NCBI GenBank assembly: GCA_016786785.1 | Contig: JAEUVR010000350.1 | Span: 1-40,924, forward strand | Length of the DNA: 40,924 nt | Direction: 5' to 3' | DNA from: Chitinophagaceae bacterium | Lineage (GTDB): Bacteria; Bacteroidota; Bacteroidia; Chitinophagales; Chitinophagaceae | Shown here: one piece after another, positions 8,201-29,174 of the stretch | Numbering within the stretch: the first letter of the stretch is position 1 | Layout: the number at the start of each line of letters is the position of its first letter | Made by a program: the position numbers and the translations under genes | The notes under the pieces: generated by a model | Told to the model about the DNA's origin: nothing | The model's database searches: none | The model's input: only the letters and a program-made list of their open reading frames with translations

Positions 8201-8435
8201 TCCTGACAGGTCTGAAGAGGGTATTAACCTTTATCCCAATCCGGTAAAAGACAACTTGTATATCGCCGGAACAGGAAGGACCGGCTCTGCGCAGCTAATA
8301 GATTTGCAAGGACGCATATTGAGTAAGATAGTATTCAATGGAAGTCCTAAGTGGCTCAATATGACAGGATGTGCTCCCGGAATTTATCTACTTAAAACAC
8401 AGGATGGTCAAACATACAAGATTCTGAAGAAATAG
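5292..8435 (+). CDS. T9SS-secreted 14-repeat beta-propeller protein
   Basis: A 1047-residue secreted protein. A signal peptide (residues 1-22, ending ARAQ) is followed by 14 tandem units of about 45 residues with the pattern SLAID-x2-G-x-PYVAF-x-D...K-x-TVMKFNG-x2-WVNVG-x2-GFSAG, the last truncated. Fourteen such units would fit two seven-bladed beta-propellers. Residues about 710-890 form a non-repeated beta-rich domain, then an Ig-like stretch (LPVQWLQIHARLN...WYRIRQEDIDGK), then a type A T9SS sorting domain (LYPNPVKDNLYI...APGIYLLKTQDGQTYKILKK). It should be exported by the type IX system and attached to, or released from, the surface. No catalytic residues are recognised, so a binding or adhesive role is likely. 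Confidence 0.85.
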   Translation: MRLLIPILLLVFHTVSWQARAQCTFQSLGPDDASPVSFARADYPSLAIDATGLLYVAYADIDNQFKVKVRKYDGSSWINLGLPNFSGYMAENVRIAVDSDNTPYVAYRAEDYSQKISVMKFNGTDWEPVGLPGFSAGKAEYINLLIDENNIPYVAYKDAGNSKKVTVMKFTGGAWVTLGTAGFSTFEVKAVSLSIGADGSLYVAFTDTQFNLETRVMKYNGSGWSMVGTSVSFNSDYNSLAINNEGIPYLAVTIGSNGGRMMRYSEGQWRQVGPDFASTGLSDISLALNSEGIPYVSYQNTGIQGKPTVKKLEGTDWVTLGNTELSHRMSLSPSIALNSFGVPYILYSDQTNGGRARVTKFEGAEWTQVGTQGISLSAASAASLAIDSKGSPYLAFNDNLNGGKATLMKHNGASWSPLGELGFSAGHVNYLSLSIAKATDIPFVAHSDGSQGNKVSVMQYLSSGWANVGSPGFSAGISNYVSLAINAGGVPFVAFQDFGNGGRTTVMRFNGNNWVNVGTAGFSAGTSTHVKLAIDADGVLYVGFKDNGNSGKATVMKFNGSSWVNVGVAGFSAGSTENHSLSIDTAGVPYIAFQDFSAGNRVSVMKFNGANWVNVGNPGFSTGVTTNEISLITDAAGTPYIAFKDAGTNNKARVMKYTNDSWTELDAFGYSPSSLRHLSLAVDAAGTPFLAYSSGEVWAKKQYQSLASSTTQVSAILAPPFSGLFKNDCATIATITPNADNPLNGNTTVKVWVDNVQPAAYVKRHYEIEVPQAIAATATARVTLYFSQSDFDLFNFIAPIDLPTAPDDEPGIANLLIEKIAGISRDGSGRPGSYEGVSETFHPKNDDIVWNTIAGRWEVSFDVTGFSGFFVKTQATSLPVQWLQIHARLNNQQQPILNWEVMEYNVAAYHVESSEDASNFRLIDRIPGKGDGANSYQYEGTVKVNQPTWYRIRQEDIDGKIAYSKILKLVPDRSEEGINLYPNPVKDNLYIAGTGRTGSAQLIDLQGRILSKIVFNGSPKWLNMTGCAPGIYLLKTQDGQTYKILKK

Positions 8436-8916: not shown

Positions 8917-9927
8917 TCAGACCCAACTCATCAATGGATATTTTTTCCCCAACACAGCCTCCGCGTCGCTGTCGAGCCAGTTCGATAAAAGAGTAGCATA
9001 TACCTCTCGGAAATCAATAACCGCAGGTAAACTGTTCTTTTCGAGATCAGGAAGAGGGTTGTAAATGCCCTGCGAACGAAGGGAACGCCCTAAAACGATC
9101 AGGTTGCCGCCGTTACCATGTTCTGTTCCGCGTTTGTTGTTCTCTCGCGCTGTTCTGCCAAATTCCGAGTATACTACGACAAGCGTGGACCGCCCATTGG
9201 ACGTTTCTTCCAGCCGGTTAAAAAAGGACGACAGACCATCTGATAAAGCGCGTAACAACATCGCATGCCGCTGCTGCTGCATCTGGTGCGTGTCGAAGCC
9301 ATCCAGCGCTATATGATGCATCGGTTGACCTGAAGCGGCGTTTAATATATCCGCTACCCGCCGCAACTCCTCTCCGAAATCGTCTACGCAGCAGCTGTTA
9401 TCCGCGTCTTCGGGAATAGCAGGAAGGGCGGGCGTCATGGTTATTTCATTAGCCAGCCGGTCTGCCGCCGGCTTGCAATCTTTCCTCCGAAGGTCTTCTG
9501 CCCGTTGCAGCCAGCACTTTTGACCATCAGGTTTTTCCAGGCCTGTTTGCCAGATCGCGGCGGCATGGTAATGCGATAATTCCTGCTGTGGAATGCCCAC
9601 GCCGTTGAGGATAAGCATCTGGCCATTCTTATATAAGGGGAGCAGCGTTCCTATACAAGGATGCAATCCGTACTGATGATCCAGCGGCAATACTTCATCA
9701 GGATGAATGGCAAGTCCCGGCCGTTGTTTATAATAAGCGGGGTTGGCATAGGGGATCACGGTATTGAGCCAGTCGTTCCCTCCCCGTAAATGGATCATAA
9801 CAATGTTGCGTTCAGCGGCTGCGGCGGCTGCGGGAGGATTGCACGCGAACTGTAACAGTCCGGGTACAAATAAGGCGCCGGAGCCAAGGCCTGCCTGCTT
9901 GATAAAGGATCTGCGTTGCATAAGCAT
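8917..9927 (-). CDS. DUF1501 family exported protein
   Basis: A 336-residue protein with a Tat-type leader (QRRSFIKQAG, then a hydrophobic stretch). It has the DUF1501 signatures MIHLRGGNDWLN, SHYHAAAIWQTG and, near the C-terminus, VVVYSEFGRTARENN followed by GTEHGNGGN. DUF1501 proteins resemble the alkaline phosphatase/sulfatase fold group, but their reaction is unknown to me. It is usually found next to a DUF1800 gene; none is present here. Instead it is the last gene of the PUL, 10 bp after the transporter, so a role in glycan processing is inferred. ATG 9921 (MQRRSF) is an equally good start. Confidence 0.85.
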   Translation of the reverse strand: MLMQRRSFIKQAGLGSGALFVPGLLQFACNPPAAAAAAERNIVMIHLRGGNDWLNTVIPYANPAYYKQRPGLAIHPDEVLPLDHQYGLHPCIGTLLPLYKNGQMLILNGVGIPQQELSHYHAAAIWQTGLEKPDGQKCWLQRAEDLRRKDCKPAADRLANEITMTPALPAIPEDADNSCCVDDFGEELRRVADILNAASGQPMHHIALDGFDTHQMQQQRHAMLLRALSDGLSSFFNRLEETSNGRSTLVVVYSEFGRTARENNKRGTEHGNGGNLIVLGRSLRSQGIYNPLPDLEKNSLPAVIDFREVYATLLSNWLDSDAEAVLGKKYPLMSWV

Positions 9928-9937
9928 GAATTAATTA

Positions 9938-11215
9938 TTAAATAACATCCGGCGCAGGTTGATCTATCCGATTTCCCGGACGATAACCGTTCAGTCCGTA
10001 AAAAACAATATAACAGTAACAAACAACCGGAATAATAAACGCCATAGCCCAGGAAGAATGATCTTTTATTACTCCCTGCAGAAAGGAAACAACAGCGCCT
10101 CCTACAATAGCGGTCGACAACAATCCGGACGCCACCGTGGTATGTTGCCCCAACCCGTTTACGGAGAGTGAAAAGATAATCGCAAACATAACGGAATTAC
10201 ACAACCCAACGGCAATCATCGTCCATACGGCCAGATAACCATCAGAGAAAATAGAAACCAGGATCAGCGCCGCGGCTATTGCGCCGCATGCAGCCAGTAC
10301 AGTCTGCGGCCGCGCCATTCGCAGCAAGAAAGCGCCCGCCAGCCGGCCGACCAGCATTCCGCCCCAATAATAAGCTACATAATGATTGGCATCCTTTTCG
10401 GAAACAGCAAGCACATCGGCGATGTAGTTTGTAAGAAAGGTGCCGATAGCCACTTCTGCGCCCACATAACAGAAGATACCGCCGATGCCGAAATTCAGGT
10501 TCCGGAAAGAAAAAACACTTTTCACTGCCGGTTGGTCGGCATTATTTCCAGCAGAAGCGGTTGTTTTAATAACAGGCAATTTCAATACAGAGAGCGCAAT
10601 TGCAATAACGGCGAGAAGGAGGGCTATACCTAAATAGGGATATTTAACCGCATCGCTGGAAGCGGTTGCCCCTTCCAGTTCGGAAAGGATAAAAGCTGCG
10701 CCGAACAAGGGCGCCACAGTTGTTCCCACCGAGCCCACGCCTTGTATAAGCGTTAGCCGCGAAGAGGCTGTACGCGCCGGTCCCAATACAGTGACATAAG
10801 GGTTAGCCGCAACCTGCAGCAATACAATGCCAATAGCCAGCACAAACAATGCGCCCAGGAATACGGCGTACTGATGAAATACCGAAGCCGGATAAAACAG
10901 CAGGGCGCCTGCGGCTGCAATACAAAATCCCCATACCATTCCTTTCTGATAACCGATGCGTTGCACTATTTTGCCGGCAGGTATCGACATGAGTCCATAC
11001 GTGAGAAAGAAATAGAACTGCACCAGCGATGAAGAGGTATAATTCAGATCGAACCCCTTCCTGAAAAAAGGCACCAGCGTATCGTTCAGGCAGGTAATAA
11101 ATCCCATCATGAAATAAAGTACCCCCAGGGAGATCAGCGCGGGCAGATAGCTGGTTTTCTGGCCATTCAGCGAGGGCTCTGCCAAAGGAGTATCCGTGGA
11201 TGCTATGTTTGCCAT
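9938..11215 (-). CDS. FHS-type sugar MFS transporter
   Basis: A 425-residue inner-membrane protein with about 12 predicted helices. It carries the signatures of the fucose/glucose/galactose (FHS, FucP/GluP) branch of the major facilitator superfamily: GFITCLNDTLVPFFRKGF in helix 1, LLQVAANPYVTVLGP, TASSRLTLIQGVGSVGTT and, in the second half, YVGAEVAIGTFLTNYI. These proteins usually import a monosaccharide with protons. It starts 4 bp after the epimerase, and this tight linkage suggests it brings in the sugar that the epimerase converts. The exact sugar cannot be read from sequence; a GlcNAc/ManNAc-type hexosamine is inferred from the epimerase. Confidence 0.88.
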   Translation of the reverse strand: MANIASTDTPLAEPSLNGQKTSYLPALISLGVLYFMMGFITCLNDTLVPFFRKGFDLNYTSSSLVQFYFFLTYGLMSIPAGKIVQRIGYQKGMVWGFCIAAAGALLFYPASVFHQYAVFLGALFVLAIGIVLLQVAANPYVTVLGPARTASSRLTLIQGVGSVGTTVAPLFGAAFILSELEGATASSDAVKYPYLGIALLLAVIAIALSVLKLPVIKTTASAGNNADQPAVKSVFSFRNLNFGIGGIFCYVGAEVAIGTFLTNYIADVLAVSEKDANHYVAYYWGGMLVGRLAGAFLLRMARPQTVLAACGAIAAALILVSIFSDGYLAVWTMIAVGLCNSVMFAIIFSLSVNGLGQHTTVASGLLSTAIVGGAVVSFLQGVIKDHSSWAMAFIIPVVCYCYIVFYGLNGYRPGNRIDQPAPDVI

Positions 11216-11219
11216 AAAA

Positions 11220-12413
11220 TTATTTTTCCAGGATGATTTGTTTGCTCTTTTCTTCTATTGCCAGCAAGGTTTTCCATCCCTGGTACAGGCTGCGGGGCAC
11301 ATGAAAACAACCTTTCCATTTACCGCCTTTTAAAGGCAAAAACACCTGTCCTGAACGGTTCAGATACCCATACCATTCTCCATTAACGGGATCGGGAAAA
11401 CGCGACCATGTATAATCATGCAACTGCTCAAACCATTCCCAGCACTTAGGATCAGCGGTATGGCGGTATCCTTTCAGCATACAAACCAGCGCCTCAGCAT
11501 GCACCCACCATAGCTTCTGGTCCCACTCCAACGGCAGGGAAGGTTTATTACGGTAATCCAGGAAATAAAAAATACCGCCTTCCTTTTTATCCCACCCGTA
11601 CTCCATGATACGGAGGGAAATAGCAGTTGCCTTTTGGATGAGTTGACGATCCCCGGAACGTTCTGCAAGGTCCATGATGAACCAAAGCGCTTCCAGGCCA
11701 TGCCCGGGGTTTATCAAGCGTCCTTCCATGCTATCGCAGAAATTCCCCTGTCCGTCTACGTTTTCCAATATCAGGCCCGAATCTTTTTGATAAAAGACAT
11801 CCATCACAAGGTGGATAGATTGGCGGATGGTAGATTCTACCAATGTCGGCTCCAGCAAGGGTTCCATTTCGAGCGCCAGATTGGAGAGGATCATGGGAAG
11901 AGAAAAACTCTGCAGCGGACGGGCGCCAGGATAAGCTTTTGAATATATCCCTTTTGGATTGTCGCTCCGCTCGAGTATGTTACGAAATGTGGAAGTAGCA
12001 ATATCGCCATACTCCTTGTTACCGGTAGCGGTACAGAGCTGAGCAAAAGCCATGGCTGCAAAGCAGTCGGAGAAAATATTATATGGTTGTATCAGCGGAT
12101 GACCCTCTCGGGTAAGCGAGAAATACCAGTTGCCAGCGGCATCTCGACCATGCTCCTGCAGAAAGCGGGCTCCTGAAATAGCAAAATCCAGCCATTCCTG
12201 TCTTTGCTCTACCTTGTTGTACAGCATAGAAAAAGTCCAGACCTGGCGGCATTGCAACCAGATGAATTTATCGGTATCGTACACTTTTCCCTGCTCGTCG
12301 AGGCAGGAAAAGTAGCCGCCGTATTCTCTGTCACCCGAATTATTCAGCCAGAATGGAATGATGTCGTTCAGGAGGGCGTCCTTATAAATCTGCGCGTATG
12401 CTACATTTGTCAT
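11220..12413 (-). CDS. N-acylglucosamine 2-epimerase (AGE family)
   Basis: A 397-residue (alpha/alpha)6-barrel epimerase. Expected active-site residues are present: R56 in LQCRQVWTF, H238 in INPGHGLE, E307 in WWVHAEAL and H371 in KGCFHVPRSL. They sit one position away from R57, H239, E308 and H372, which I recall for the cyanobacterial GlcNAc 2-epimerase. The KGCFHVPR segment is also typical of the renin-binding-protein branch. This favours interconversion of GlcNAc and ManNAc over cellobiose 2-epimerase or mannose isomerase activity, though the family is versatile. No signal peptide is seen, so it is cytoplasmic. It lies 17 bp after the esterase gene and 4 bp before the transporter in the PUL. 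Confidence 0.88.
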   Translation of the reverse strand: MTNVAYAQIYKDALLNDIIPFWLNNSGDREYGGYFSCLDEQGKVYDTDKFIWLQCRQVWTFSMLYNKVEQRQEWLDFAISGARFLQEHGRDAAGNWYFSLTREGHPLIQPYNIFSDCFAAMAFAQLCTATGNKEYGDIATSTFRNILERSDNPKGIYSKAYPGARPLQSFSLPMILSNLALEMEPLLEPTLVESTIRQSIHLVMDVFYQKDSGLILENVDGQGNFCDSMEGRLINPGHGLEALWFIMDLAERSGDRQLIQKATAISLRIMEYGWDKKEGGIFYFLDYRNKPSLPLEWDQKLWWVHAEALVCMLKGYRHTADPKCWEWFEQLHDYTWSRFPDPVNGEWYGYLNRSGQVFLPLKGGKWKGCFHVPRSLYQGWKTLLAIEEKSKQIILEK

Positions 12414-12430
12414 ATTCTCTGCATGTATGA

Positions 12431-13738
12431 TTAACGGTGTTCATTAAATTTTTTCAATATCCAATTGTTCACTCTTTCCCATTGATCAGGAGCCGACCAG
12501 TGTCCCAGAGTAGGGTCTGTGAATAATTCTTTCGGCGCTGTAATAACATTATACGCGGCATAGGTTGAAGTAGGAGCGCATGCCTCGTCATTAAATCCCC
12601 AGAGATAGAAACCTGGCGCTTTTAGCAAACGCGCAAAATTGACGATGTCGTAATAACGGGAGGTTTCTATTTTTTTCTGTTGTATCGGATCGTTGATATC
12701 TTCAATACGAAACATTTGCGGCGCTCCGCCGGCGCGGCCATGGAGATAACCAGTAAGATCAGAGAGAGCAGGATAAAGAGAAGCTATATAATTCACCCGC
12801 TTATCCAGCGCTGCCGCTACTATGGCAAGCGCTCCGCCCTGACTACCGCCATCTACTGCCAGCCGTTTACCATCAAATGCATCCAGCGTAAACAGAAAAT
12901 CAATGGCTTTGATACAACCCAGAAATACGCGTTTATGATAATAAAGATCGCGGTTGTCGAGGTTGAACATAAAATATCCGTTTAATGCGCTGGCATTAAG
13001 AGCAGGATACAATTCTTTATTCAGCGTCATAGGAATACCGTGTATTCCCATATCGAGCGTGATAACTCCTTTTTCCGCAAGCGCAGGATTTCCATACAGC
13101 GGCCATACGCCCGCTCCCGGAAATGTAATAACAGCGGGATATTTTCCTTCTTTTTTGGGGACGCAAAGAATGCCGTATAGTTTACCGCCCGGCGAATAAT
13201 GGTTAAAGCTGATCTCGTATACATTTACTTTATCGGTGGATCTTTCGGGAATAGGCGTAAATACCGGCTCCAGGGGAATTTTTGAAGAAGCGGCTATGCT
13301 GTTGTTCCAGAATTCCAGGAAATCCGCCGGAGCCGTAGCGTAAGCATTGATCTGCAGAGGGTCAAAGCCGACTGTGCAGAGATTGCGATAGGTTTTACCC
13401 TCCGCCTGCATAGTGACTATACACCTCAGAAAACCCGGCTCGCTAAGCGTTCCTCCTTTTATTATGGCAGAGCCTTTAATAGTTAAAGCGCCGGATTGCG
13501 CAGGAGGCATTTTCTCAGGCCCAACCTCATAGTAGATCTCTGCGCGCGGAATGGGCCTGCCATTATCAAGCACAGTTACCCGGAAAGTAACCGGCTCTCC
13601 TGTTTTATAGATTGCAGCGGGACGGTCGGGCTTAATGCTGATCTGAATCCTGGCCGTCGTATCGGGTTGCGCATGAACGGCTGCGTTAAACAAAAACAAA
13701 CCTATTACCCCTATGGAAATCGAAATGACCCTGTACAT
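12431..13738 (-). CDS. Acetyl-xylan-esterase-like (AXE1/CE7) exported hydrolase
   Basis: A 435-residue protein with a signal peptide (about residues 1-23, ending VHAQ). Residues about 28-125 form an Ig-like beta domain (GEPVTFRVTVLDNGRPIP). An alpha/beta-hydrolase domain follows, with nucleophile S299 in VDGGSQGG, acid D384 in WGFNDEACAP and H413 in LGHWS, the AXE1/CE7 arrangement. The family removes acetyl groups from sugars. In the PUL it would act in the periplasm or at the surface to deacetylate the glycan or its oligosaccharides. The start is ATG 13738, 3 bp after the cytoplasmic DUF4434 gene. Specificity for xylan should not be assumed, since no xylan-cleaving enzyme accompanies it. Confidence 0.85.
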   Translation of the reverse strand: MYRVISISIGVIGLFLFNAAVHAQPDTTARIQISIKPDRPAAIYKTGEPVTFRVTVLDNGRPIPRAEIYYEVGPEKMPPAQSGALTIKGSAIIKGGTLSEPGFLRCIVTMQAEGKTYRNLCTVGFDPLQINAYATAPADFLEFWNNSIAASSKIPLEPVFTPIPERSTDKVNVYEISFNHYSPGGKLYGILCVPKKEGKYPAVITFPGAGVWPLYGNPALAEKGVITLDMGIHGIPMTLNKELYPALNASALNGYFMFNLDNRDLYYHKRVFLGCIKAIDFLFTLDAFDGKRLAVDGGSQGGALAIVAAALDKRVNYIASLYPALSDLTGYLHGRAGGAPQMFRIEDINDPIQQKKIETSRYYDIVNFARLLKAPGFYLWGFNDEACAPTSTYAAYNVITAPKELFTDPTLGHWSAPDQWERVNNWILKKFNEHR

Positions 13739-13741
13739 TCT

Positions 13742-14680
13742 TTATGGCTTTAATGTCTTCATGTATTCCTTATACCGATCATATAAATGTCCTGCCTGCA
13801 AGTAAGCCGATTGAGGGCTCATAAAATGAGAGAATTCAAAAGTGATGGCTTTATCAAAGCCCGCCTGGCGCGCCGCTTCGAGCTTTAATCGCAGCTTTTC
13901 AAATTTGATCGGCAAAAAGCGGATGGGCATATCCCTGTCGAAAGTTTCGGCGTTGGTCCAGCATTTCATACCGTATTTGTCGGCCAGCTTTTTATTTACT
14001 TCAAAAAACCCCGGCAGCAGGTCGTATTCAATATGGCCATCCTGGAAAGCCACGCTATCCACTACATTTTTTATTCCGTCAAAGATCTCATTCCATTCTT
14101 TTTCGTGCTGATCGAGCGTTACCGAATCCGGTTTGGATTCAATGTTGTCGAATGTATATACCGCTTTAGTGCCATCGATAAAGGGAGAGATAAAAGTGGG
14201 CAGGTTGCCGGAAATATCTTTACAGTGTTTGCCCAGCGTTGCATACAGATCGATGATCTTACCCACTTTCCGACTGATCTCCTGGGAAAGATACCAGCCT
14301 TTAAAAGATTTAAAATGGCCGTATTTTTTCCATACTTCATCTATCACCTTCAGGTTGATGTCCACTTCTTTCTGGTAGTCGCCCTGGTGCCAATAGACGC
14401 CGGAGTCGTACAGACCGAAGTAAAAGCTCATACGGTGCTTGTCCGCCAGCTCCAGGAACATTTTTACGAGATCCACCGGCGGCTGATAAGCCCGCTGTTC
14501 TTTCATCAGGACCTGCGACGGATACGTGATCCATCTCTTATGCCCGCTGCGGATAAGGTATACGCTGTCGATACCGATGGCTTTCATGTGCGAGAAGTCG
14601 GCATCCCATTCAGCGCGTCCCCAGTTCTGGTGGGGGATATCGTGGCTGATTTCGTCTAAGAAAGTTCCTGTAATTTTCAT
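13742..14680 (-). CDS. DUF4434 putative glycoside hydrolase, cytoplasmic form
   Basis: A 312-residue protein without signal peptide, starting directly with GTFLDEISHDIPHQNW. It has the DUF4434 TIM-barrel pattern and aligns by eye with the preceding gene product. Shared acidic positions are E134 in GWYLSQE, D214 in AFQD and E245 in WTNAETF, plus FSHFMSP near the end. The two conserved glutamates are about 110 residues apart and lie on predicted strand ends, as in retaining hydrolases of the GH-A type. A role in cleaving imported oligosaccharides in the cytoplasm is inferred; I know of no established reaction for DUF4434. It is located mid-operon in the PUL, 18 bp after its paralogue. Confidence 0.75.
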   Translation of the reverse strand: MKITGTFLDEISHDIPHQNWGRAEWDADFSHMKAIGIDSVYLIRSGHKRWITYPSQVLMKEQRAYQPPVDLVKMFLELADKHRMSFYFGLYDSGVYWHQGDYQKEVDINLKVIDEVWKKYGHFKSFKGWYLSQEISRKVGKIIDLYATLGKHCKDISGNLPTFISPFIDGTKAVYTFDNIESKPDSVTLDQHEKEWNEIFDGIKNVVDSVAFQDGHIEYDLLPGFFEVNKKLADKYGMKCWTNAETFDRDMPIRFLPIKFEKLRLKLEAARQAGFDKAITFEFSHFMSPQSAYLQAGHLYDRYKEYMKTLKP

Positions 14681-14698
14681 CAGTATATTTTTTATCTG

Positions 14699-15700
14699 TT
14701 AGTTTAATTTCCCTGTTTGCACATATTGCAGGTACTGGTTATGATAAGGGCCTGTTACGGTAACCGGGCTATAATAATGCGAATACGCAAAGGTGATGAT
14801 ACCGCTGACATAAGGTTGCACGATTTTCATTTGTTCTATGAACCTGTCTACCGGGGCGCTGGACCAGTAGCTTTGCACAAAAGTTTCGGCGTCGGACCAG
14901 AATACCAATCCTTTCTTAGTACTAACGGCTTTGGCCAGGTGCGAAAACCAACTGTCGAGCATTTCTATTGTCAATCCCCCGGCGCCTATACAATCCTGCG
15001 GAGCGAATATATCTCCCGCAGCAAAACGGGTTTTAGAAAAAACATAGGTCCACATTTTCTCATACTCTGAGGCCGTGCCGACGCGATAGTTCATAAAGGG
15101 GCAGATCATTACCGGCATACCTGGCGTGAGCGCATGCAGGTGATCCAGGCTTTTGTTCAACGCCTCAGCGAGCATATCCTGCCGGCCTCGGGCGGTGTAG
15201 TTCAGATTATCGATCTCCCATACCCAGTACCAGCCGTAAAACGCATTTTTGTATTTGTTTGCATATTTGTTCTTTATTTCGGTAGCTATCTGGTTGCCGA
15301 TATCCATCTGATCGTACAACCATTCAGCGGAGTAACTATTCCACCAACGCTCATCGAAATTAAGCCCGATAAACACTTTTATACCGGCTTTTTCAGCGTT
15401 TCGCAAACACATATCCAGCAGATCTTTACCGTATTTGCTGTCGAAGCCGGGAAGGTCGCTGGCATACATTGCGTGATTGCCAATAACGGTAGCTGTAAAA
15501 ACGATATAGCTCATCTTCACTTCTTTCAGTATGCTCAGCTCCTGCTGCCATTTGGCGTCATTCCAGTTCTGCACCAAAAAATCCTGAATGAAAGTGCCAT
15601 TAGCTATCGGATAATCGCCTGCATCGGTAGCTGCGCTTTTCTTGCAGTGGACAGTCGTCATTGCTATCAGTAGCAGGCATATCATTGTTTTTATACGCAT
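14699..15700 (-). CDS. DUF4434 putative glycoside hydrolase, lipoprotein form
   Basis: A 333-residue lipoprotein. The leader MRIKTMICLLLIAMTTVHC ends at a lipidation cysteine, C19, followed by KK. The body starts with GTFIQDFLVQNW and keeps the DUF4434 pattern, including E162 in GWYWVWE, D236 in APQD, E272 in WSDAETF and YSHYYSP. These positions correspond to those of the cytoplasmic paralogue downstream. It would sit in the outer membrane or periplasm and make the first cuts in the glycan. It lies 17 bp after the glycan-binding protein gene. The enzymatic role is inferred from fold, conserved acids and context. Confidence 0.75.
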   Translation of the reverse strand: MRIKTMICLLLIAMTTVHCKKSAATDAGDYPIANGTFIQDFLVQNWNDAKWQQELSILKEVKMSYIVFTATVIGNHAMYASDLPGFDSKYGKDLLDMCLRNAEKAGIKVFIGLNFDERWWNSYSAEWLYDQMDIGNQIATEIKNKYANKYKNAFYGWYWVWEIDNLNYTARGRQDMLAEALNKSLDHLHALTPGMPVMICPFMNYRVGTASEYEKMWTYVFSKTRFAAGDIFAPQDCIGAGGLTIEMLDSWFSHLAKAVSTKKGLVFWSDAETFVQSYWSSAPVDRFIEQMKIVQPYVSGIITFAYSHYYSPVTVTGPYHNQYLQYVQTGKLN

Positions 15701-15717
15701 ATTGAGAGCGAGGTAAT

Positions 15718-16830
15718 TTATTTAGCCGGAACGATCCGGAAATTACAGAATGATACGTCGTAATCATCCGGACCATGGCCGTCAAAAGTAATCTGCCATA
15801 CATATGCCCTATCCTCGATAGGGTTCTTTAACTGCTTCATGGGTATGGTAACCGTTTTCCATTTGCCATTGGTGGTAAAACTTCCTGTTCCTGTTTCTTC
15901 AAAGGGTTTCCACTGGTAAGCGGGGCCGTAATCCAGGTAGAAGGTAGCCTGCATATTCCGGATAGGCTTGAGTGCGTTAACCTCAAATTTTAATACATAG
16001 TTATCCGTAGCGCCTACAACGCCTAAGTGGCGGGGTACGGAAAAAAGCGTCAGCCATTGATAATTGGCGTCCCAGTTTTGTACCACATGATAATAATTAC
16101 CATTGATAGGCGCCGGAACCGGGCCTGAAGAAGCCATCCATCCGCCATAGATCTCGTCGTCAGGATAGGGCGTAAGCGGGAAGAACAGGTTGCGGTCGTC
16201 GCGGAAATAACCGTCTGTTGAAAGAGGCGCCGAAAGTTTCGGACTATTGATAGTTACCTTACCCACCTGCGCGCCCGGCGGCACAACTACTTTAATAGCA
16301 TCTGCAGAGGCCTCAACAATAGGCGCTTTCACGTTGCCGGCGAAAGTAACTTCGCCTTCTGTTTCGTTCACATCGTAGAGGTCGAAGTTTTTACCTACCA
16401 GAACAAGCGTATCGCCGATGGCGGTATATTCGTTATACATACCTTGGAGCGCCAGCACAGGAATGTTGATGGTAAAATCATAAGAAGCTACGCCCCCCTT
16501 TGTAGTCACTTCAATTTTATTGTTCACCGCGGAGGGGATACGCCGGGGGATTTTTACGCTGATCATGGAATCGACGGCATAAAAATCATTCCTTTCCACA
16601 ACTTCATTATTGAATGTCACCTGCTGCGCAGTGGAGAGATTCATGCCATATATGATCAGCCAATCGTTCAGATTGCCTTCTTTCAAATTGGCGGATAATT
16701 CCAGGGGCTGCGCCACGCGGGTTATAACGGGAACCCCTGGGGCGGACTCCTTATCCTTTTTGCAGGAGATAACAGCAAAAGTTACCAGTAAGGATAAAGC
16801 GCCCGTTGTAATAATTCTATAAATAGACAT
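15718..16830 (-). CDS. Surface glycan-binding lipoprotein (SGBP-B-like)
   Basis: I choose ATG 16830, giving 370 residues, because the leader MSIYRIITTGALSLL followed by VTFAVISC then KK forms a proper lipoprotein signal. An in-frame start further upstream at 16941 would overlap susD and put 37 non-leader residues before it. Two IPT/TIG-like Ig domains follow (about 25-115, with LIIYGMNLSTAQQVTFNN; about 115-205, with DTLVLVGKNFDL). The C-terminal half (about 205-370) is beta-rich and aromatic-rich (HVVQNWDANYQWLTLF, DYGPAYQWKPFEETG), as in SGBP-B proteins that hold a polysaccharide at the surface for the SusCD porter. Position after susD supports this. Confidence 0.82.
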   Translation of the reverse strand: MSIYRIITTGALSLLVTFAVISCKKDKESAPGVPVITRVAQPLELSANLKEGNLNDWLIIYGMNLSTAQQVTFNNEVVERNDFYAVDSMISVKIPRRIPSAVNNKIEVTTKGGVASYDFTINIPVLALQGMYNEYTAIGDTLVLVGKNFDLYDVNETEGEVTFAGNVKAPIVEASADAIKVVVPPGAQVGKVTINSPKLSAPLSTDGYFRDDRNLFFPLTPYPDDEIYGGWMASSGPVPAPINGNYYHVVQNWDANYQWLTLFSVPRHLGVVGATDNYVLKFEVNALKPIRNMQATFYLDYGPAYQWKPFEETGTGSFTTNGKWKTVTIPMKQLKNPIEDRAYVWQITFDGHGPDDYDVSFCNFRIVPAK

Positions 16831-16858
16831 AACTATATTTTTTTCGTGTGCATTAGCA

Positions 16859-18481
16859 TTACCATCCGGGATTATTTCCCGAAATAGACGAATTGGAATT
16901 GATTTCATCGATGGGGATCGGCAAAAGCAGGTTGCGCTCAACCCTCACTTTGGAAATATTATCCTGGTTAACAGAAATCTGGTTCATCGCCTGGAGATAG
17001 ATCCCCCAGCGGAGAAGATCGAAACGGCGTTTGGACTCAAACACCAGCTCGCGGCCTCTTTCTTCCAGCACGTATGAGCGGAACTGTTGTTTGGTCATTC
17101 CCGCCGGAGCTTTGGCAGCATGACTCCTGGTTCTCACAGAATCCAATGAACGGTAAGCCGCAGCCGTAGGTCCGTTTACTTCATTCTCCGCTTCCGCATG
17201 CATCAGCAATACCTCTGCAAATCGCAGCTCGGGATAAAATGCATCGGAGTTCTGCGGCTTCGGATCAGAGACATAACTGTATTTCTGAGAGTAGGCATGA
17301 TTATAATACTCCGCGCTGAATGAGTACACACGGCCTGCGCCATCCGTTTCATATTTGGCCGCGTCTCTTTCCGGATAAAAAAAGTAACCGGTGTTATTAG
17401 GATCTCCGTAGTCTACAATGAACTGATGGCGTACGCCGTGCAACACCCTGTCGTCGTTGTCTTCGTAGTTATCATAGTGATTATTTGTCATCCAGACAGC
17501 GCCTACGTTGCTCCTGTCCTCCTTAGCGGCGTTGAAATAGTAATTCAGATCGGTTTGGAGATCAGGGTTGCCGTTGAGCGCCTGTATCTCCCACATATGT
17601 TCCCCGGTATTCCGGTTCTGGATCTTCCACAGATCCATAAAATCGGGAAAAAGACCGTACTCGGCGCCATCTATCAACTGCGATGTTTTCTTGCGCGCTT
17701 CTTCATATAGTTCCTGGCTATTGAAAGATTCATATCCTTTCACCACATCCTTGTTGTAGGTATAATACATATTGTTCTGTCCCCCGCGTACGCTGATGGT
17801 TTCATTGGCCAGCGAGCCGGACGCCATGGTCAGATAAGTTTTCGCAAGAAGGGCAGAAGCCACTCCACGGGTCACGCGGCCTTTTTCGCCTGATCTTCCG
17901 TCTTTATGCGAATAGAGCATTTCCTCCGCTTTTTTGAGATCGGCGATAATGAATTCGTATGTTTCTGCCACCGATGCCCTGGGTTGGTTCGGGTCGGCGC
18001 CTGATGCAAGCGTTTTATCGCGCAGCGGAACGCCTCCGTAAATTCTTACAAGGTTAAAATAGGCCCAGCCGCGCAGGCAATGGGCTTCGCCGAGTATTCG
18101 CTGTTTCAGGTCTTGGTCCATCGCGATATCAGGCACGTTGGTCAGTACGCTGTTGGCGCGGGAGATCAATAAATAATGATCATTCCAGATGGTGTTCACT
18201 CCCCAGTACGCGAGCGGATTACCGGCGCCCATACTGCCCAGGAACCAGCCAGCCCCGGAAGAATGATCCGAATCGAGGTCGAGCAGCCAGAAAGCCTGCT
18301 TATAAAAGCCCGTGGCGAGCAGAACATTATATACTCCGCTAAGAGCGGCCAGCGCATCGTCGCCGTTTTTATAAAAGTTGTTGGGAGAAATGAAGTCGTA
18401 TGTTTTTTCTTCCAGACTTTTTTTACAGGAGCCCATCAAAAAGGCCGCTGCAAAGAGAAATAGGATGAATTTATGCCTCAT
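16859..18481 (-). CDS. SusD/RagB family nutrient-binding lipoprotein
   Basis: A 540-residue outer-membrane lipoprotein with leader FILFLFAAAFLMGSC and then KK. It shows the SusD pattern: LSGVYN near the start, HCLRGWAYFNLVRIYGGVPL, then AKTYLTMA, and the C-terminal SusD domain with YPELRFAEVLLMHAEAENEV and RGRELVFESKRRFDLLRWG. SusD proteins act as the lid of the SusC channel and bind the incoming oligosaccharide. It lies 23 bp after susC. Binding specificity cannot be read here. Confidence 0.95.
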   Translation of the reverse strand: MRHKFILFLFAAAFLMGSCKKSLEEKTYDFISPNNFYKNGDDALAALSGVYNVLLATGFYKQAFWLLDLDSDHSSGAGWFLGSMGAGNPLAYWGVNTIWNDHYLLISRANSVLTNVPDIAMDQDLKQRILGEAHCLRGWAYFNLVRIYGGVPLRDKTLASGADPNQPRASVAETYEFIIADLKKAEEMLYSHKDGRSGEKGRVTRGVASALLAKTYLTMASGSLANETISVRGGQNNMYYTYNKDVVKGYESFNSQELYEEARKKTSQLIDGAEYGLFPDFMDLWKIQNRNTGEHMWEIQALNGNPDLQTDLNYYFNAAKEDRSNVGAVWMTNNHYDNYEDNDDRVLHGVRHQFIVDYGDPNNTGYFFYPERDAAKYETDGAGRVYSFSAEYYNHAYSQKYSYVSDPKPQNSDAFYPELRFAEVLLMHAEAENEVNGPTAAAYRSLDSVRTRSHAAKAPAGMTKQQFRSYVLEERGRELVFESKRRFDLLRWGIYLQAMNQISVNQDNISKVRVERNLLLPIPIDEINSNSSISGNNPGW

Positions 18482-18504
18482 AACAAATAGCTTATTTTTT
18501 TACT

Positions 18505-21500
18505 TTAGAATACGCATTGTACGCCGATGTTTATTACGCGCGAGTTAGGGTAACCGCCCAGGTCAACGCCCCTGAGGGCAGGGTTCTCTCCATATCCATT
18601 TACATCGGGATCAAAGCCTGAATAATTGGTAATGGTGAGCAGGTTGGCGGCGCTGACAAAAACCCGCAGTTTTTCTATAAGCCGCATTTTCGGCTGCCAG
18701 TTATATCCGATGTTCACATTTTTCAATCGCAGGTAAGAGCCGTCTTCGATAAAACGCCGCGAAAACTGGAAGGTTCGCCAATATTGCACTTCCGCCTTGG
18801 GCTGCGTAGCATGCTCCCAGTTTTCCGGCGTCCAGCGGTTATCATAGATTGTTTGCGTAACGTTATTATAAGCGCCTACATTCGACAGATACAGCGTATT
18901 CATATTCAGGATATCTCCTCCTTTCACGCCCTGTATAAATAAAGAGAAATCGAAATTGCGATAATTAAAATCAGTGGTAAACCCATAGGTGAAATCGGGG
19001 TTTACATCGCCGATCACTATCCGGTCCTTATCGGTCAATACGCCATCAGGAGTAATATCGCGATACCTGACCTCTCCGATGGTTCTTTTAATGATGGCAT
19101 CGCTCTGATGGGCATAGAACGGATTTGCCCTCACTTCAGCCTCATTACGGAAGATACCGTCTTCCACATATCCATATAAAGCCCCTATAGGCAAACCAGC
19201 CCGCTGTATAAAGGGAAGATCATTATTAAACTTGACGCTGCTGGCGAATTGCTCTGCCACATTACCGATATCCAGGATCCTGTTACGGTTGAAAGCTATA
19301 TTACCGCCGATGTTCCAGGTAAAATCCTTGCCCGATACGGGAGTAGCCGATAAAGCCACTTCCAATCCCTTATTGCTGACGCTTCCGACGTTCTGCAGGG
19401 CAAACGTAAAGCCGGTGCTGCCGGGCGTAACGATATTCTGCAACAGGTCAAACGTTTTCTTGGAATAGTAATCAACGTTCAGACGGATCCTGTTTTCCAG
19501 AAATGCGAGGTCCGCTCCAATATTATACTGATCGGTCGTTTCCCATTTCAGGTTTTCATTAGCAGGTCCGGCCCATATATCGTCGGCATAACCGCTGGAA
19601 AGAGATCCGTTAAAAGCATAATTATACGGAATCAGCTTCGACAGCGATTGATATGGGTTAATAGCCTGGTTGCCCGTACGTCCATAGCTCATGCGAATTT
19701 TAGCGTCGCTGATAATTTTATTATCGCTCATGAAGCGCTCATTACCGATGTTCCAGGCAATGGCTGCAGAAGGGAAGAAAGCCCATTTATTGTTTTTGGC
19801 AAACTTGCTGGATCCGTCCCTGCGGAAAGAAGCGGTGAACATATAGCGGCTGTCATAGGTATAATTAACCCTGGCCAGCATCGACGCCAACGCAGTGGAG
19901 GACTTACCAGACCTTGGTTGAGAATAAACCTGTCCGCCCGCCATATTGTTATTCTGCAGGAGATCGTTCACGAAATTGCTGGCCTGTTGATTCTTATAAT
20001 TGCTAACGAACGATTCATAGGTAGCTCCAGCGGTGGCTGAAACAGTATGCGCGCCAAAATCGTTGAGGTAAGACAGGATGCTCTCCGAGGTAACCGAGCG
20101 CGAATTGTAATCGCTTTTATAAGCCAGCCCCTGACTTTGCATGCCTTCATATACCAGGCGGGGGAAATACTGATCGCGCTGGCTGCCATAAATTCCAATT
20201 CCGAGGTTTTGCCTGAACTTAAATCCTGCCGGCAGCGCGATCTCGACATAATTGGAAGAAAAGACCTGACTCACGTCAATACTGTTCAAAACATTATTCA
20301 CATACAGGTAAGGGTTAGAAGTCGTGATAGAACGGGCAAAGTCGTTCAGCGTTGAGTCGAATACGCCTACCGTAGGTTGAAAAGCCAGCGCGGCCCTTAC
20401 AACGCCCGCCTGCACCGAAAGATCTTCCGTATTGGTTTTTACCATTTTGTTTTCGCTTCTGGAAAAGCTGGTGAAAGAACCGGCCGTCATCCATTTTTTA
20501 ACGTTGCGCGACAGGTTCATGCTTATGCCATATTTGCGAAAAGAAGAGGAAGATATAACGCCCTGCTGATTGAGATAGTTGCCCGAAAGGGAGTAGCTGC
20601 CTTTTTCATCTCCGCCCGAAAGAGTGAGCGTGTGATTATGCGTTTGCGCAGTGCGAAGGATCTCATCCTGCCAATCAGTGCTATTGCCGATAAAGTCTTC
20701 CGGCGCCTTGGCATAATACAATACATTGGGATCCGCCATGGAAGGGATCCATTCTCCCGGAAAGGGCAATGCGTAATTTGTTCCCTCGAAATAGTTTGAA
20801 TTGGCATACGCTTCGTTTTGCAGCGAAGCGTATTGATAAGCGTCCAGCATATCAATTTTGCGAATAACCTGCGTAAGCCCGTAATTGAGATTGAGCTCCA
20901 CCTTATCTCCTCCTTTTTTTCCCTTTTTTGTGGTGATCATCACAACGCCGTTGGCGCCCCTGGAGCCGTAAATAGCCGTGGCAGAGGCGTCGCGCAGAAT
21001 ATCGATCGATTCTATGTCGGAAGGATTAAGAAATGCCAGCGCATTGATCGATTGTTTATCGCCGGCTTCCACAGATCCCGGCGTAGCGCCGCTATTATTT
21101 GAAGCAAGGGGCGCTCCGTCGATCACATATAAAGGTTGTGTGCCGCCGAGAAAGGAATTTGTTCCCCTGATCTGCATGCTGAGCCCGGCTCCCGGGGCGC
21201 CGTCGTTCTGGTTGATCACCACGCCGGCCACCCGCCCCTGTAATCCAGAAAGCAGGTTGGTAGGAGAACCCTTCATGATCTCGCTTCCCTTAACCGATGA
21301 AATAGCGCCGGTTACATCGGAACGTTTTGCGGCGCCATATCCGATCACCACGACTTCATCCAGACCGGCAACGGCTACCTGCAGCGTGATGATAAGCTGA
21401 TCTTCATTGCGAAGCGCCTGGTATTCCTGGCTCTTATAGCCAACGGCAGAAAATACCAGCCAGGATTTTTCAGGAACGCGTATCATAAAGTTTCCCGCGG

Positions 21501-21771
21501 CATCCGTGGCTGCGATCTGCCGACCGCCTTTTACCGAAATGGTTACCCCTTGTAAAAAGCTCCCAGGCGTATTGCCATCGGCGACCTTTCCCCTTACGAT
21601 CAGTTCTTTTTGCTGGAACAGTGTGGAATGAACCGGGAGGCGATTGTCCGCTATTCTTGCGGCGCCGACAACTGGCAGCGAAAGAAGGCCGCACAATAAC
21701 CAGAAGACCTGCCGCAATGCTGTTTTCGGGAAATTGGGAATGGAGGGCCTATAAACCTTTTCCATAAGCAT
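18505..21771 (-). CDS. SusC/RagA family TonB-dependent transporter
   Basis: A 1088-residue outer-membrane transporter. A signal/anchor region (about 20-40) is followed by a carboxypeptidase-regulatory-like domain (VRGKVADGN to VGYKSQEYQ), the TonB-box-like DEVVVIGYG, and a plug domain with LLSGLQGRVAGVVI, QIRGTNSF, PLYVIDGAPL and DIESIDILRDASATAIYGSR. The rest is the 22-strand barrel ending VINIGVQCVF. No STN (anti-sigma signalling) domain is present, so expression is probably not governed by a FecI/FecR pair but by the divergent ROK regulator. It is the first gene of the nine-gene PUL. ATG 21765 is an alternative start. Confidence 0.95.
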   Translation of the reverse strand: MLMEKVYRPSIPNFPKTALRQVFWLLCGLLSLPVVGAARIADNRLPVHSTLFQQKELIVRGKVADGNTPGSFLQGVTISVKGGRQIAATDAAGNFMIRVPEKSWLVFSAVGYKSQEYQALRNEDQLIITLQVAVAGLDEVVVIGYGAAKRSDVTGAISSVKGSEIMKGSPTNLLSGLQGRVAGVVINQNDGAPGAGLSMQIRGTNSFLGGTQPLYVIDGAPLASNNSGATPGSVEAGDKQSINALAFLNPSDIESIDILRDASATAIYGSRGANGVVMITTKKGKKGGDKVELNLNYGLTQVIRKIDMLDAYQYASLQNEAYANSNYFEGTNYALPFPGEWIPSMADPNVLYYAKAPEDFIGNSTDWQDEILRTAQTHNHTLTLSGGDEKGSYSLSGNYLNQQGVISSSSFRKYGISMNLSRNVKKWMTAGSFTSFSRSENKMVKTNTEDLSVQAGVVRAALAFQPTVGVFDSTLNDFARSITTSNPYLYVNNVLNSIDVSQVFSSNYVEIALPAGFKFRQNLGIGIYGSQRDQYFPRLVYEGMQSQGLAYKSDYNSRSVTSESILSYLNDFGAHTVSATAGATYESFVSNYKNQQASNFVNDLLQNNNMAGGQVYSQPRSGKSSTALASMLARVNYTYDSRYMFTASFRRDGSSKFAKNNKWAFFPSAAIAWNIGNERFMSDNKIISDAKIRMSYGRTGNQAINPYQSLSKLIPYNYAFNGSLSSGYADDIWAGPANENLKWETTDQYNIGADLAFLENRIRLNVDYYSKKTFDLLQNIVTPGSTGFTFALQNVGSVSNKGLEVALSATPVSGKDFTWNIGGNIAFNRNRILDIGNVAEQFASSVKFNNDLPFIQRAGLPIGALYGYVEDGIFRNEAEVRANPFYAHQSDAIIKRTIGEVRYRDITPDGVLTDKDRIVIGDVNPDFTYGFTTDFNYRNFDFSLFIQGVKGGDILNMNTLYLSNVGAYNNVTQTIYDNRWTPENWEHATQPKAEVQYWRTFQFSRRFIEDGSYLRLKNVNIGYNWQPKMRLIEKLRVFVSAANLLTITNYSGFDPDVNGYGENPALRGVDLGGYPNSRVINIGVQCVF

Positions 21772-21941: not shown

Positions 21942-22027
21942 GTATATTTGTACCTGTATCATTGGCTTTAGACAATTAAAAGCGATCATGGAAAAGCTGG
22001 GCGCTGCATATTTGTATCTGTATTATT
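21942..22027 (+). repeat. 22-bp direct repeat in the ROK leader
   Basis: Copies at 21942-21963 and 22006-22027 agree at 19 of 22 positions; both contain ATATTTGTA followed by CTGTAT. Start-to-start distance is 64 bp. The first copy includes the -7 box; the second has CATATTTG in that place. It may be a duplicated promoter or regulator site. Confidence 0.45.
21943..21950 (+). promoter_or_regulatory. -7 box upstream of the ROK gene
   Basis: TATATTTG matches the -7 consensus TAnnTTTG and would start transcription about 85 nt before the ROK ATG. No clear -33 element is seen. Confidence 0.45.
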
Positions 22028-22043
22028 CACTATAACCTCGCAG

Positions 22044-23270
22044 ATGGTAAAGAATTATTCATTTCTGCACGAGTTGCAAAACGAGGATGTGGCAGGAGTA
22101 GCGTATAAAAACCGTACGCTTATCCGTCGCATACTGGCTCATTTTGCCAATTCCGGCAATGCCACCATTACCGACCTTAGTAAGCTGCTGAATACAAGCG
22201 CGCCTAAAACAGGCGAGCTTATTGCGGAGCTGATCGAGGCCGGACTGGTAAAGGATTATGGTAAAACCGGGTCTTCTGTGGGAAGACGTCCCAATATCTA
22301 CGGTCTTGCTCCGGATTCAGCGTTCTTTGTAGGGGTGGAAGTAAAGAATAATTATATCAATATCGGGCTGCTTGATTTTAAGAAGAACCTGGTGAAGCTT
22401 TCGGAACGATTGCCTTATACGCTCAGCAATACGCAGAAATCCCTGGATGATCTTTGTCAGATTGTGAAAACATTTATTGAAGAGCTGAAAGATATTGCCG
22501 AAAAAGTGCTGGGCATCGGCATTAATCTTTCAGGACGTATTAATTACAAAACCGGTTACAGTTATAGCTTCTTCTACTTTAACGAAGAACCATTGAGCAG
22601 CGTAATCGAACGGAAGATCGGAATACCCACCTATCTGGATAATGATTCCCGGGCCATGGCCTATGGCGAGTTTTGCAGCGGGGTGGTACATGATGAAAAG
22701 GATGTCCTTTTTATCAATATTGATTATGGAATAGCCATGGGCGTTATGATCAATGGCGAATTATATTACGGCAAATCGGGATTTGCAGGTGAATTCGGGC
22801 ATATTCCGTTTTTCCAGAATGAGATCTTATGTCATTGCGGAAAGAAAGGCTGCCTGGAAACGGAGACCTCTGGCAAGGCGCTGATCGATCAGTTTCGTCA
22901 GCAGCTGCGGGAAGGCGCAAGTTCCCTGCTGGGCAGCAAATACAAAAGTATCGACGATATTAAACTGGACGATATTATTGACGCGGCGAACAACGACGAT
23001 ACCCTCGCTATTGAACTGATTGCAAAAATCGGGGAGAAGCTTGGTAAGGCGATAGCCGTGTTGATCAATCTGTACAATCCGGAGCTGATCATTCTCGGCG
23101 GACGGCTCGCGAGTACCGGCGATTACATTTATTACCCTGTAAAAAGCGCTATCCACAAATATTCCCTCAGCCTCGTGAACAATGATACCCAGCTAAAAAT
23201 TTCCCGGCTCGGCGCCAAAGCGGGCGTGATCGGCGCCTGCCTGATGGTCCGCAATAAATTGCTGGGGTAG
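22044..23270 (+). CDS. ROK family transcriptional regulator
   Basis: A 408-residue NagC/XylR-type regulator. Residues about 20-85 are a winged helix (TITDLSKLLNTSAPKTGELI, then GSSVGRRPN). The rest is a ROK sugar-binding/kinase-like domain with GIGINLSGRI, LDNDSRAMAYGEF, GEFGH (249-253) and the zinc motif CHCGKKGCLE (263-272). These proteins are usually repressors released by a sugar or sugar-phosphate, often GlcNAc-6P or glucose. Divergent orientation with susC across an inverted-repeat array makes it the likely switch of the PUL. A GlcNAc/ManNAc-related inducer would fit the epimerase. It ends 23 bp from the convergent ABC permease gene. Confidence 0.92.
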   Translation: MVKNYSFLHELQNEDVAGVAYKNRTLIRRILAHFANSGNATITDLSKLLNTSAPKTGELIAELIEAGLVKDYGKTGSSVGRRPNIYGLAPDSAFFVGVEVKNNYINIGLLDFKKNLVKLSERLPYTLSNTQKSLDDLCQIVKTFIEELKDIAEKVLGIGINLSGRINYKTGYSYSFFYFNEEPLSSVIERKIGIPTYLDNDSRAMAYGEFCSGVVHDEKDVLFINIDYGIAMGVMINGELYYGKSGFAGEFGHIPFFQNEILCHCGKKGCLETETSGKALIDQFRQQLREGASSLLGSKYKSIDDIKLDDIIDAANNDDTLAIELIAKIGEKLGKAIAVLINLYNPELIILGGRLASTGDYIYYPVKSAIHKYSLSLVNNDTQLKISRLGAKAGVIGACLMVRNKLLG

Positions 23271-25663: not shown

Positions 25664-25665
25664 AG

Positions 25666-27027: not shown

Positions 27028-27028
27028 A

Positions 27029-27709
27029 TCAACCCACAAGAATATTTTCCGTTATCGTTTGTCCGTCGAGCATGCGGATGATCCGGTGGCTATACCTCGC
27101 ATCATGCTCGCTATGCGTCACCATTACTATTGTCGCGCCTTGCTCATTGAGCTCTGTCAGCAATTGCATCACTTCATTTCCATTATTGGAATCCAGGTTG
27201 CCCGTTGGCTCATCGGCGAGGATCAGCTTAGGATGATTAACCACCGCCCGGGCCACCGCCACGCGCTGCTGCTGTCCCCCTGATAATTGTTGCGGATAAT
27301 GATTTCTTCTGTGCATGATCTTCATTTTATCCAACACTTCTTCCACCCGCTTTTTTCTTTCGGAAGATTTCACCCTGGTATAAATCAGCGGCAATTCCAC
27401 ATTTTCAAATACCGTCAGCTCATCGATCAGGTTAAAGCTCTGGAACACAAATCCGATATTATGCTTACGCAAGTCCGAACGGCTGCGCTCATTTAGATTG
27501 CCTACTTCCTCTCCGTTAAACAGATAACTCCCGCTATCGATGCTATCCAGCAACCCGATAATATTCAGCAAGGTGGATTTTCCGCAGCCCGAAGGACCCA
27601 TGATCGCCACAAACTCGCCCTTCTTTACTTCTAAAGAAATCTTGTTGAGCGCAGTAGTTTCTATTTCCTCCGTTCTGTAAACTTTAATAAGCTCTGTAAT
27701 CCTGATCAT
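27029..27709 (-). CDS. MacB/LolD-type ABC transporter ATPase
   Basis: A 226-residue ATPase with all motifs in place: Walker A GPSGCGKST (about 39-47), Q-loop FVFQSFNLIDEL, signature LSGGQQQRVAVARA, Walker B LILADEPTGNLDS and switch histidine in VMVTHSEHD. Length and sequence match the LolD/MacB exporter branch. It drives the FtsX permease of the same operon. It lies 13 bp after the adaptor gene and 1 bp before the tolC-like gene. Confidence 0.95.
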   Translation of the reverse strand: MIRITELIKVYRTEEIETTALNKISLEVKKGEFVAIMGPSGCGKSTLLNIIGLLDSIDSGSYLFNGEEVGNLNERSRSDLRKHNIGFVFQSFNLIDELTVFENVELPLIYTRVKSSERKKRVEEVLDKMKIMHRRNHYPQQLSGGQQQRVAVARAVVNHPKLILADEPTGNLDSNNGNEVMQLLTELNEQGATIVMVTHSEHDARYSHRIIRMLDGQTITENILVG

Positions 27710-27722
27710 AACGGTTGTTGGT

Positions 27723-28979: not shown

Positions 28980-29012
28980 TATGCAATCATTTAAGCGGTA
29001 CGCTCTATTCTT

Positions 29013-29027
29013 TTCAAAGCCGTGCCA
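29013..29027 (-). promoter_or_regulatory. Sigma-54-like promoter of the efflux operon
   Basis: Read on the minus strand, TGGCACG (29027 to 29021) matches the -24 half of the sigma-54 consensus fully, with C before it. The -12 half, TTGA, comes after 3 instead of 4 spacer bases and ends in A instead of C, so that half is poor. Transcription would start about 25 bp before TTG 28979. The neighbouring NtrC-type activator makes the site plausible. Confidence 0.45.
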
Positions 29028-29072
29028 GAATTGCAACTATATGATTGTCATTTTTTTAAACAAATCCCAGCG

Positions 29073-29120: not shown

Positions 29121-29174
29121 GTATACTACTTGTAAAAAATGATGACCGAGGTAGATAGAAGTTATTTATATTGA

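Follow-up and report, generated by a model that had tools for sequence, protein, structure and literature searches.

A nine-gene locus with a divergent regulator

The subject of this report is a gene cluster of a Chitinophagaceae bacterium (assembly GCA_016786785.1, contig JAEUVR010000350.1, positions 1 to 40,924; this whole stretch of 40,924 nt is called the window below), which has the makings of a polysaccharide utilization locus (PUL) and carries two genes of the family DUF4434, proposed here to encode glycoside hydrolases (GHs). Nine open reading frames (ORFs), confined to the minus strand, span positions 8917-21771 (Table 1), and the description in an earlier note on this DNA of nine genes on one strand with 3-28 bp between them agrees with the ORF coordinates: from susC to the DUF1501 gene the gaps are 23, 28, 17, 18, 3, 17, 4 and 10 bp. 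Of these, the value of 28 bp is counted from ATG 16830, taken as the start of the third gene, where a lipoprotein signal begins (MSIYRIITTGALSLLVTFAVISC); the longest ORF of this gene (15718-16941) opens at an upstream TTG and overlaps susD. The gene assignments made earlier also stand, with Pfam matches for all nine and NCBIfam matches for some. Homologues of susC and susD lie side by side with co-directional glycan-handling genes, the arrangement by which PULs are recognized, and the glycan-cutting enzyme of which such a locus needs at least one would be supplied by the two DUF4434 proteins, given their GH-A-like predicted fold and residues.

The nine co-directional genes are not the whole of the locus, since a tenth, encoding a ROK-family regulator, diverges from them, and copies 65% identical to it diverge from related loci too. 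It is preceded by a 27-nt direct repeat (21944-21970 and 22008-22034, 81% alike, 64 bp apart); the repeat was considered as an operator and dropped, since the DNA ahead of related ROK genes did not show it. At the other end, the DUF1501 gene comes after the same major facilitator superfamily (MFS) gene in three Chitinophaga clusters (L003-L005) that combine DUF4434 with an N-acyl-D-glucosamine 2-epimerase (AGE). The earlier claim that the locus holds no classical GH or lyase is borne out at the profile level, no locus protein reaching the cut-off of any such profile in Pfam or NCBIfam (GH5, GH39, GH29 and others); sub-threshold lines were seen for GH76 in the epimerase (E 0.076, 12.9 bits against 25.9) and for GHL6 in the protein of 14699-15700 (E 0.034, 14.8 bits against 35). 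Nor does Pfam find GH89, DUF5009, GH20 or a phosphoesterase in the locus. It is not, however, free of carbohydrate-active enzymes, because AXE1 is carbohydrate esterase family 7 (CE7).

Table 1. Genes of the DUF4434 locus and its divergent regulator
Feature	Position	Strand	Evidence
SusC/RagA TonB-dependent outer-membrane transporter, 1088 aa	18505..21771	-	NCBIfam TIGR04056 848.9 bits, above cut-off; Pfam Plug, TonB barrel
SusD-family glycan-binding lipoprotein, 540 aa	16859..18481	-	Pfam SusD_RagB E 1.7e-30, SusD-like_3 E 1.2e-23
Surface glycan-binding protein (SGBP), SGBP-B type with TIG domains	15718..16830	-	Pfam SGBP_B_XBD E 9.8e-20, TIG E 4.5e-8; lipobox past ATG
DUF4434 paralogue b, exported lipoprotein, proposed surface/periplasmic glycoside hydrolase; E162, D236, E272	14699..15700	-	Pfam DUF4434 E 1.5e-66; lipobox-like LIAMTTVHC
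DUF4434 paralogue a, without export signal, probably cytosolic, proposed glycoside hydrolase for imported oligosaccharides; E134, D214, E245	13742..14680	-	Pfam DUF4434 E 4.7e-78
CE7 (AXE1) carbohydrate esterase, signal peptide and N-terminal extension	12431..13738	-	Pfam AXE1 E 1.2e-43; PDB cephalosporin C deacetylase 1l7a E 4.4e-31
N-acyl-D-glucosamine (GlcNAc/ManNAc) 2-epimerase, AGE type, cytosolic	11220..12413	-	Pfam GlcNAc_2-epim; NCBIfam NF052547; PDB 2gz6
GluP/NagP-like sugar MFS transporter, inner membrane	9938..11215	-	Pfam MFS_1; NCBIfam TIGR01272 gluP 300.8 bits against cut-off 202.55
DUF1501 protein, Tat-like signal	8917..9927	-	Pfam DUF1501 E 6.8e-23
ROK-family transcription factor, NagC-like, winged helix, divergent; likely PUL regulator	22044..23270	+	Pfam ROK E 5.5e-55, HTH_24; best NCBIfam NagC 200 bits, under equivalog cut-off 650

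Fold and invariant residues of the DUF4434 proteins

Both DUF4434 proteins pass the Pfam profile PF14488 with ease (263 and 225 bits against a curated cut-off of 30). The one encoded at 13742-14680 (DUF4434a) is the orthologue of BT_0435 of Bacteroides thetaiotaomicron, whose structure is PDB 4H41 (E 2.7e-145), and the one at 14699-15700 (DUF4434b) is a divergent paralogue, 26% identical to DUF4434a, with an orthologue (51% identical) in only two of 296 sampled genomes of the window's own family, 32 of which carry DUF4434 and 264 do not. The title of 4H41, 'putative alpha-L-fucosidase', was rejected as a label, being unsupported by profiles or by linked genes. Scans of viral contigs for phage-encoded copies found no DUF4434 relatives there.

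The two paralogues are predicted to fold as (beta/alpha)8 barrels (pTM 0.88 for DUF4434a and 0.80 for DUF4434b). The structure database comparison proposed earlier was run, and both models lie nearest to 4H41 (VIA Z 41.3 for DUF4434a and 26.9 for DUF4434b) and then to enzymes of clan GH-A, led by GH5 beta-mannanases and a GH164 beta-mannosidase (Z 18-20; 19-20 between DUF4434b and the GH5 mannanases). These are the closest characterized GH folds, with which there is no sequence-family match and whose substrates are mannan, not N-acetylmannosamine (ManNAc). The GHL10 protein Cwp19 is also among the nearest structures, and a little lower in the ranking stands PslG of Pseudomonas aeruginosa, a hydrolase encoded within an exopolysaccharide synthesis operon; PslG has a clan GH-A-like barrel (Z ~18 to both models), but identity is 10-11% and its polymer is another one.

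All 87 aligned sequences, drawn from both PUL and nfr contexts and including YbcH of Escherichia coli, share six residues without exception: one Trp, both the Tyr and the Glu of a GWYxxxE motif, a Gln-Asp pair and a further Glu (W25, Y130, E134, Q213, D214 and E245 in DUF4434a). In the model of this protein, E134 lies just past strand 4 (126-130), D214 past strand 6 (209-213) and E245 past strand 7 (239-243). GH-A enzymes such as those of GH5 and GH164 carry their catalytic glutamates on strands 4 and 7, and E134 and E245 end the same two strands, as judged by strand position in the model. The Glu/Asp/Glu layout is thus the one expected of a retaining clan GH-A enzyme, and a retaining mechanism is proposed. 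The earlier note had arrived at the DUF4434 proteins as the cutting enzymes by elimination, an argument that is weak because the PULs of most relatives hold other candidate GHs (GHL10-DUF4985, GHL10, GH20, GH92). Its conclusion nevertheless finds positive support in the GH-A-like fold and in the invariant residues at strands 4, 6 and 7, and DUF4434 proteins are very probably glycoside hydrolases.

Why should one locus need two of them? DUF4434b bears a lipoprotein signal, whereas DUF4434a has neither an export signal nor an upstream in-frame start, so that the paralogues would work in different compartments. Among a-type orthologues, those of Bacteroidales and Flavobacterium have Tat or lipoprotein signals, and those of Chitinophaga, Sphingobacterium and others do not. 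By these signals the pair is not redundant. Different compartments would fit one outer cutter and one inner trimmer, and the exported DUF4434b may replace the GHL10 lipoprotein of related loci.

DUF4434 beside nfr genes in Proteobacteria

YbcH, product of the third gene of the E. coli nfrBA-ybcH operon, is itself a DUF4434 protein (E 1.5e-69). Although distant in sequence and shorter at its C-terminal end, it retains the three invariant acidic residues as E144, D211 and E245 (E. coli K-12 NC_000913.3 587091-587981; L117:2092-2982), and its operon serves synthesis and secretion, not catabolism. Two papers of 2021 conclude that NfrB polymerizes WecB-made UDP-ManNAc into an exopolysaccharide that phage N4 uses as its receptor (PMC8669469, PMC8669472). 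YbcH is regarded as auxiliary, with no activity assigned, a putative periplasmic scaffold that is dispensable for N4 infection (PMC8669469); because the three acidic residues are retained, it may actively hydrolyze the Nfr exopolysaccharide.

The association extends beyond E. coli. With further proteobacterial DUF4434 genes sampled from a plasmid and chromid collection, and E. coli as the sixth lineage, DUF4434 adjoins nfrA in all six lineages seen (E. coli, Pseudoalteromonas, Thalassospira, Comamonadaceae, Variovorax and Zymomonas). Besides the E. coli operon, the clusters of Pseudoalteromonas, Thalassospira, Comamonadaceae and Variovorax contain an nfrB homologue; in Variovorax the DUF4434 and nfr genes are adjacent but on opposite strands. 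The clusters of Thalassospira, Comamonadaceae and Variovorax include wecB as well. The Zymomonas plasmid operon (L123:4498-8837) looks degraded, with nfrA in two reading frames and only a 111-aa remnant of nfrB, next to an intact DUF4434 gene.

The epimerase and other neighbours in Bacteroidota

The most constant neighbour of DUF4434 in Bacteroidota is the AGE 2-epimerase, which accompanies it in 56 of 80 SusCD-type loci. The epimerase of the present locus exceeds the cut-off of NF052547 (669.8 bits against 600), closely resembles GlcNAc 2-epimerases of solved structure (PDB 2gz6, E 1e-158) and retains the His motifs NPGHG and FHVPR. In the family sample, AGE lies within 25 kb of DUF4434 in 24 of the 32 genomes that have the latter (0.61 expected), and NF052547 is reached in 28 of these 32 as against 10 of the 264 without DUF4434. 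Could the ManNAc come from sialic acid? This is unlikely because there is no lyase to release it: none of the 32 genomes reaches the nanA cut-off, and Pfam finds neither lyase nor sialidase in the locus. NagA copies and one ROK kinase-like gene are present in this genome.

Beyond the epimerase, related loci vary. Candidate cutters among the 80 include GHL10-DUF4985 (37 loci), GHL10 (11) and, in some, GH92 and GH20, and accessory genes include GDSL esterases (45), HGSNAT-like DUF5009 (39), SSS symporters (38), FAD oxidoreductases (26) and calcineurin-type phosphoesterases (13); none of the accessory cutters was found in the present locus. The family relative with the closest DUF4434b (L118:7164-19293) has three DUF4434 genes together with GH27, a SASA esterase, two calcineurin-like phosphoesterases, a glycerophosphodiesterase (GDPD) and an ADP-ribosylglycohydrolase-like protein, a set that suggests a phosphate-substituted glycan. 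The B. thetaiotaomicron counterpart, the BT0434-BT0454 region that includes BT_0435, shares SusCD, DUF5009, GHL10-type and calcineurin-type genes with relatives of the present locus (PMC10434189). It differs from the present locus in having GH89 (BT0438), GHL10-type and DUF5009 genes and in lacking the second, exported DUF4434 protein and the CE7 esterase. In B. finegoldii, a 712-aa protein without convincing family or PDB match is encoded between AGE and SusC (L113:13547-15685), roughly at the position of BT0438. Given the varied gene sets of relatives and the GH89 of the B. thetaiotaomicron counterpart, the substrates of the DUF4434 family may be several ManNAc-containing glycans and not one homopolymer.

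A ManNAc-containing exopolysaccharide as the leading explanation

DUF4434 thus occupies two opposite contexts, nfr synthesis clusters and AGE-bearing PULs. Producers convert N-acetylglucosamine (GlcNAc) to ManNAc ahead of polymerizing it; feeders encode an enzyme for the conversion of ManNAc to GlcNAc. Since DUF4434 relatives adjoin the E. coli genes that make a poorly known ManNAc surface polymer, the cluster probably digests a polymer of this kind from other bacteria. The explanation placed first here, with confidence about evenly balanced, is that the PUL serves a ManNAc-containing bacterial exopolysaccharide of the NfrA/NfrB/WecB type, cut by DUF4434. That the glycan contains ManNAc is rather likely; that it resembles the N4 glycan receptor (NGR) is put forward tentatively. 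The likely substrate is what is new here: the epimerase and nfrBA-ybcH, which point to ManNAc, go beyond the earlier note, as does the export of one DUF4434 protein and not the other.

In such a scheme, the polymer would be captured by SusC, SusD and the SGBP, and its chain cut by the exported DUF4434b through the double displacement of clan GH-A, with Glu162 as acid/base and Glu272 as nucleophile. Acyl groups would be taken off in the periplasm by the CE7 esterase, and the sugar or short oligosaccharide imported through the MFS carrier. In the cytosol, DUF4434a (Glu134, Glu245) would release ManNAc, which AGE would turn into GlcNAc, feeding the ROK kinase and NagA encoded elsewhere, and the NagC-like ROK protein would regulate the operon. 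In producers, YbcH would take the place of the periplasmic hydrolase with which synthase-dependent exopolysaccharide systems are usually equipped.

Several points weigh against this explanation. No structure of NGR was found in the literature searched, and its ManNAc content was deduced from genetics. The AGE reaction can run either way, and its presence is therefore no proof that ManNAc is the input. The catalytic residues were assigned via position rather than chemistry. The genomes compared are not phylogenetically independent, and kinship inflates the AGE-DUF4434 counts, although it cannot easily create them. Neighbours vary, with GH20, GH92, GH27, GH97, GHL10, metallophosphoesterases and GDPD in some relatives. 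The B. thetaiotaomicron counterpart contains the GH89 alpha-GlcNAcase BT0438 (PMC8225759, PMC10434189), which leaves room for mixed or lineage-specific substrates, and its SusC, BT_0439, has been seen on human milk oligosaccharides and galacto-oligosaccharides (PMC5238430). The literature searched contains no published activity for a DUF4434 (PF14488) protein and nothing on an acetylmannosaminidase or mannosaminidase. The 'new hydrolase family' of the earlier note calls for caution, for the family is already in Pfam with a solved structure. It is conceivable, if somewhat doubtful, that DUF4434 founds a new GH family specific for ManNAc polymers, shared by producers (with YbcH as the missing hydrolase of the machinery for the N4 receptor glycan) and by Bacteroidota that feed on this glycan, among them a human gut symbiont whose BT0434-BT0454 region is induced in vivo.

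Alternative explanations

DUF4434 could be a GH whose target is another ManNAc glycan, such as a phosphodiester-linked capsule or the linkage unit of wall teichoic acid, and not an NGR-like homopolymer. Poly-ManNAc-phosphate and ManNAc linkage units occur naturally. The phosphoesterases in 13 of the 80 related loci, and the two plus GDPD of L118, would suit such a target, and the serogroup A capsule is mentioned in PMC8669472; the present locus, however, has no phosphoesterase by Pfam, and YbcH and its proteobacterial relatives accompany nfrA and nfrB, not teichoic acid or phosphopolymer genes, which makes this alternative unlikely. It is likewise improbable that GlcNAc-rich glycans of hosts or of bacteria (for example alpha-GlcNAc-capped or heparosan-like chains) are the target of the PUL, with the epimerase in a side role and DUF4434 cutting GlcNAc or adjacent linkages. 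This would account for the GH89 of the B. thetaiotaomicron counterpart (PMC8225759, PMC10434189), for the HGSNAT-like DUF5009 of 39 of 80 relatives (PMC12423673), for GH20 in some of them, and for a NagC-like regulator and a NagP-like carrier. GlcNAc use needs no dedicated 2-epimerase, yet AGE is the most constant neighbour, the present locus lacks GH89, DUF5009 and GH20, and the B. finegoldii protein between AGE and SusC has no Pfam GH89 match.

Might DUF4434 proteins lack catalytic activity and serve only for binding or as scaffolds, the role suggested for YbcH (PMC8669469), with the cutter encoded elsewhere in the genome, where other GH genes such as those of GH20 exist? This is quite improbable, given that very divergent sequences strictly keep Glu/Asp/Glu where a GH-A-like barrel has its catalytic residues, and YbcH being dispensable for infection says little, as a periplasmic hydrolase dispensable for secretion is not unusual in such systems. 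Least credible, and very improbable, is a sialic acid or alpha-L-fucose locus: AGE epimerases are found in sialic acid operons of Bacteroidetes, the NanLET/NanOU loci resemble the present one in placing an AGE-type epimerase and an MFS carrier next to a SusCD-like pair, SusD matches NanU weakly (E 9.1e-8, 31.6 bits against a cut-off of 425) and 4H41 has its fucosidase title, but the sialate lyase, sialidase and nanA-class gene of those loci were not found here, GH29 fucosidase appears only far down the Foldseek list and the locus showed no fucose genes.

Other genes of the window

The other genes of the window were scanned and are unrelated to the PUL. At 5292-8435 (+) lies a gene whose product of 1047 aa is repetitive and propeller-like and bears a sorting tail for type IX secretion (Por_Secre_tail E 3.1e-8), and 23294-31833 holds a set of genes for ABC export (permease, OEP, ATPase, HlyD) next to a pair that encodes a sigma-54 response regulator and a histidine kinase.

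Implications

If a ManNAc-containing exopolysaccharide is indeed the substrate, a function would be given to an uncharacterized enzyme family with a crystal structure dating from 2012, and the Nfr exopolysaccharide system of E. coli would gain its periplasmic hydrolase. A substrate class would also be named for the B. thetaiotaomicron counterpart region. DUF4434 would further provide an enzyme tool for identifying the N4 glycan receptor, for which the literature searched offers no solved chemistry. Finally, it would suggest a food chain in which Bacteroidota feed on the surface glycans of Proteobacteria.

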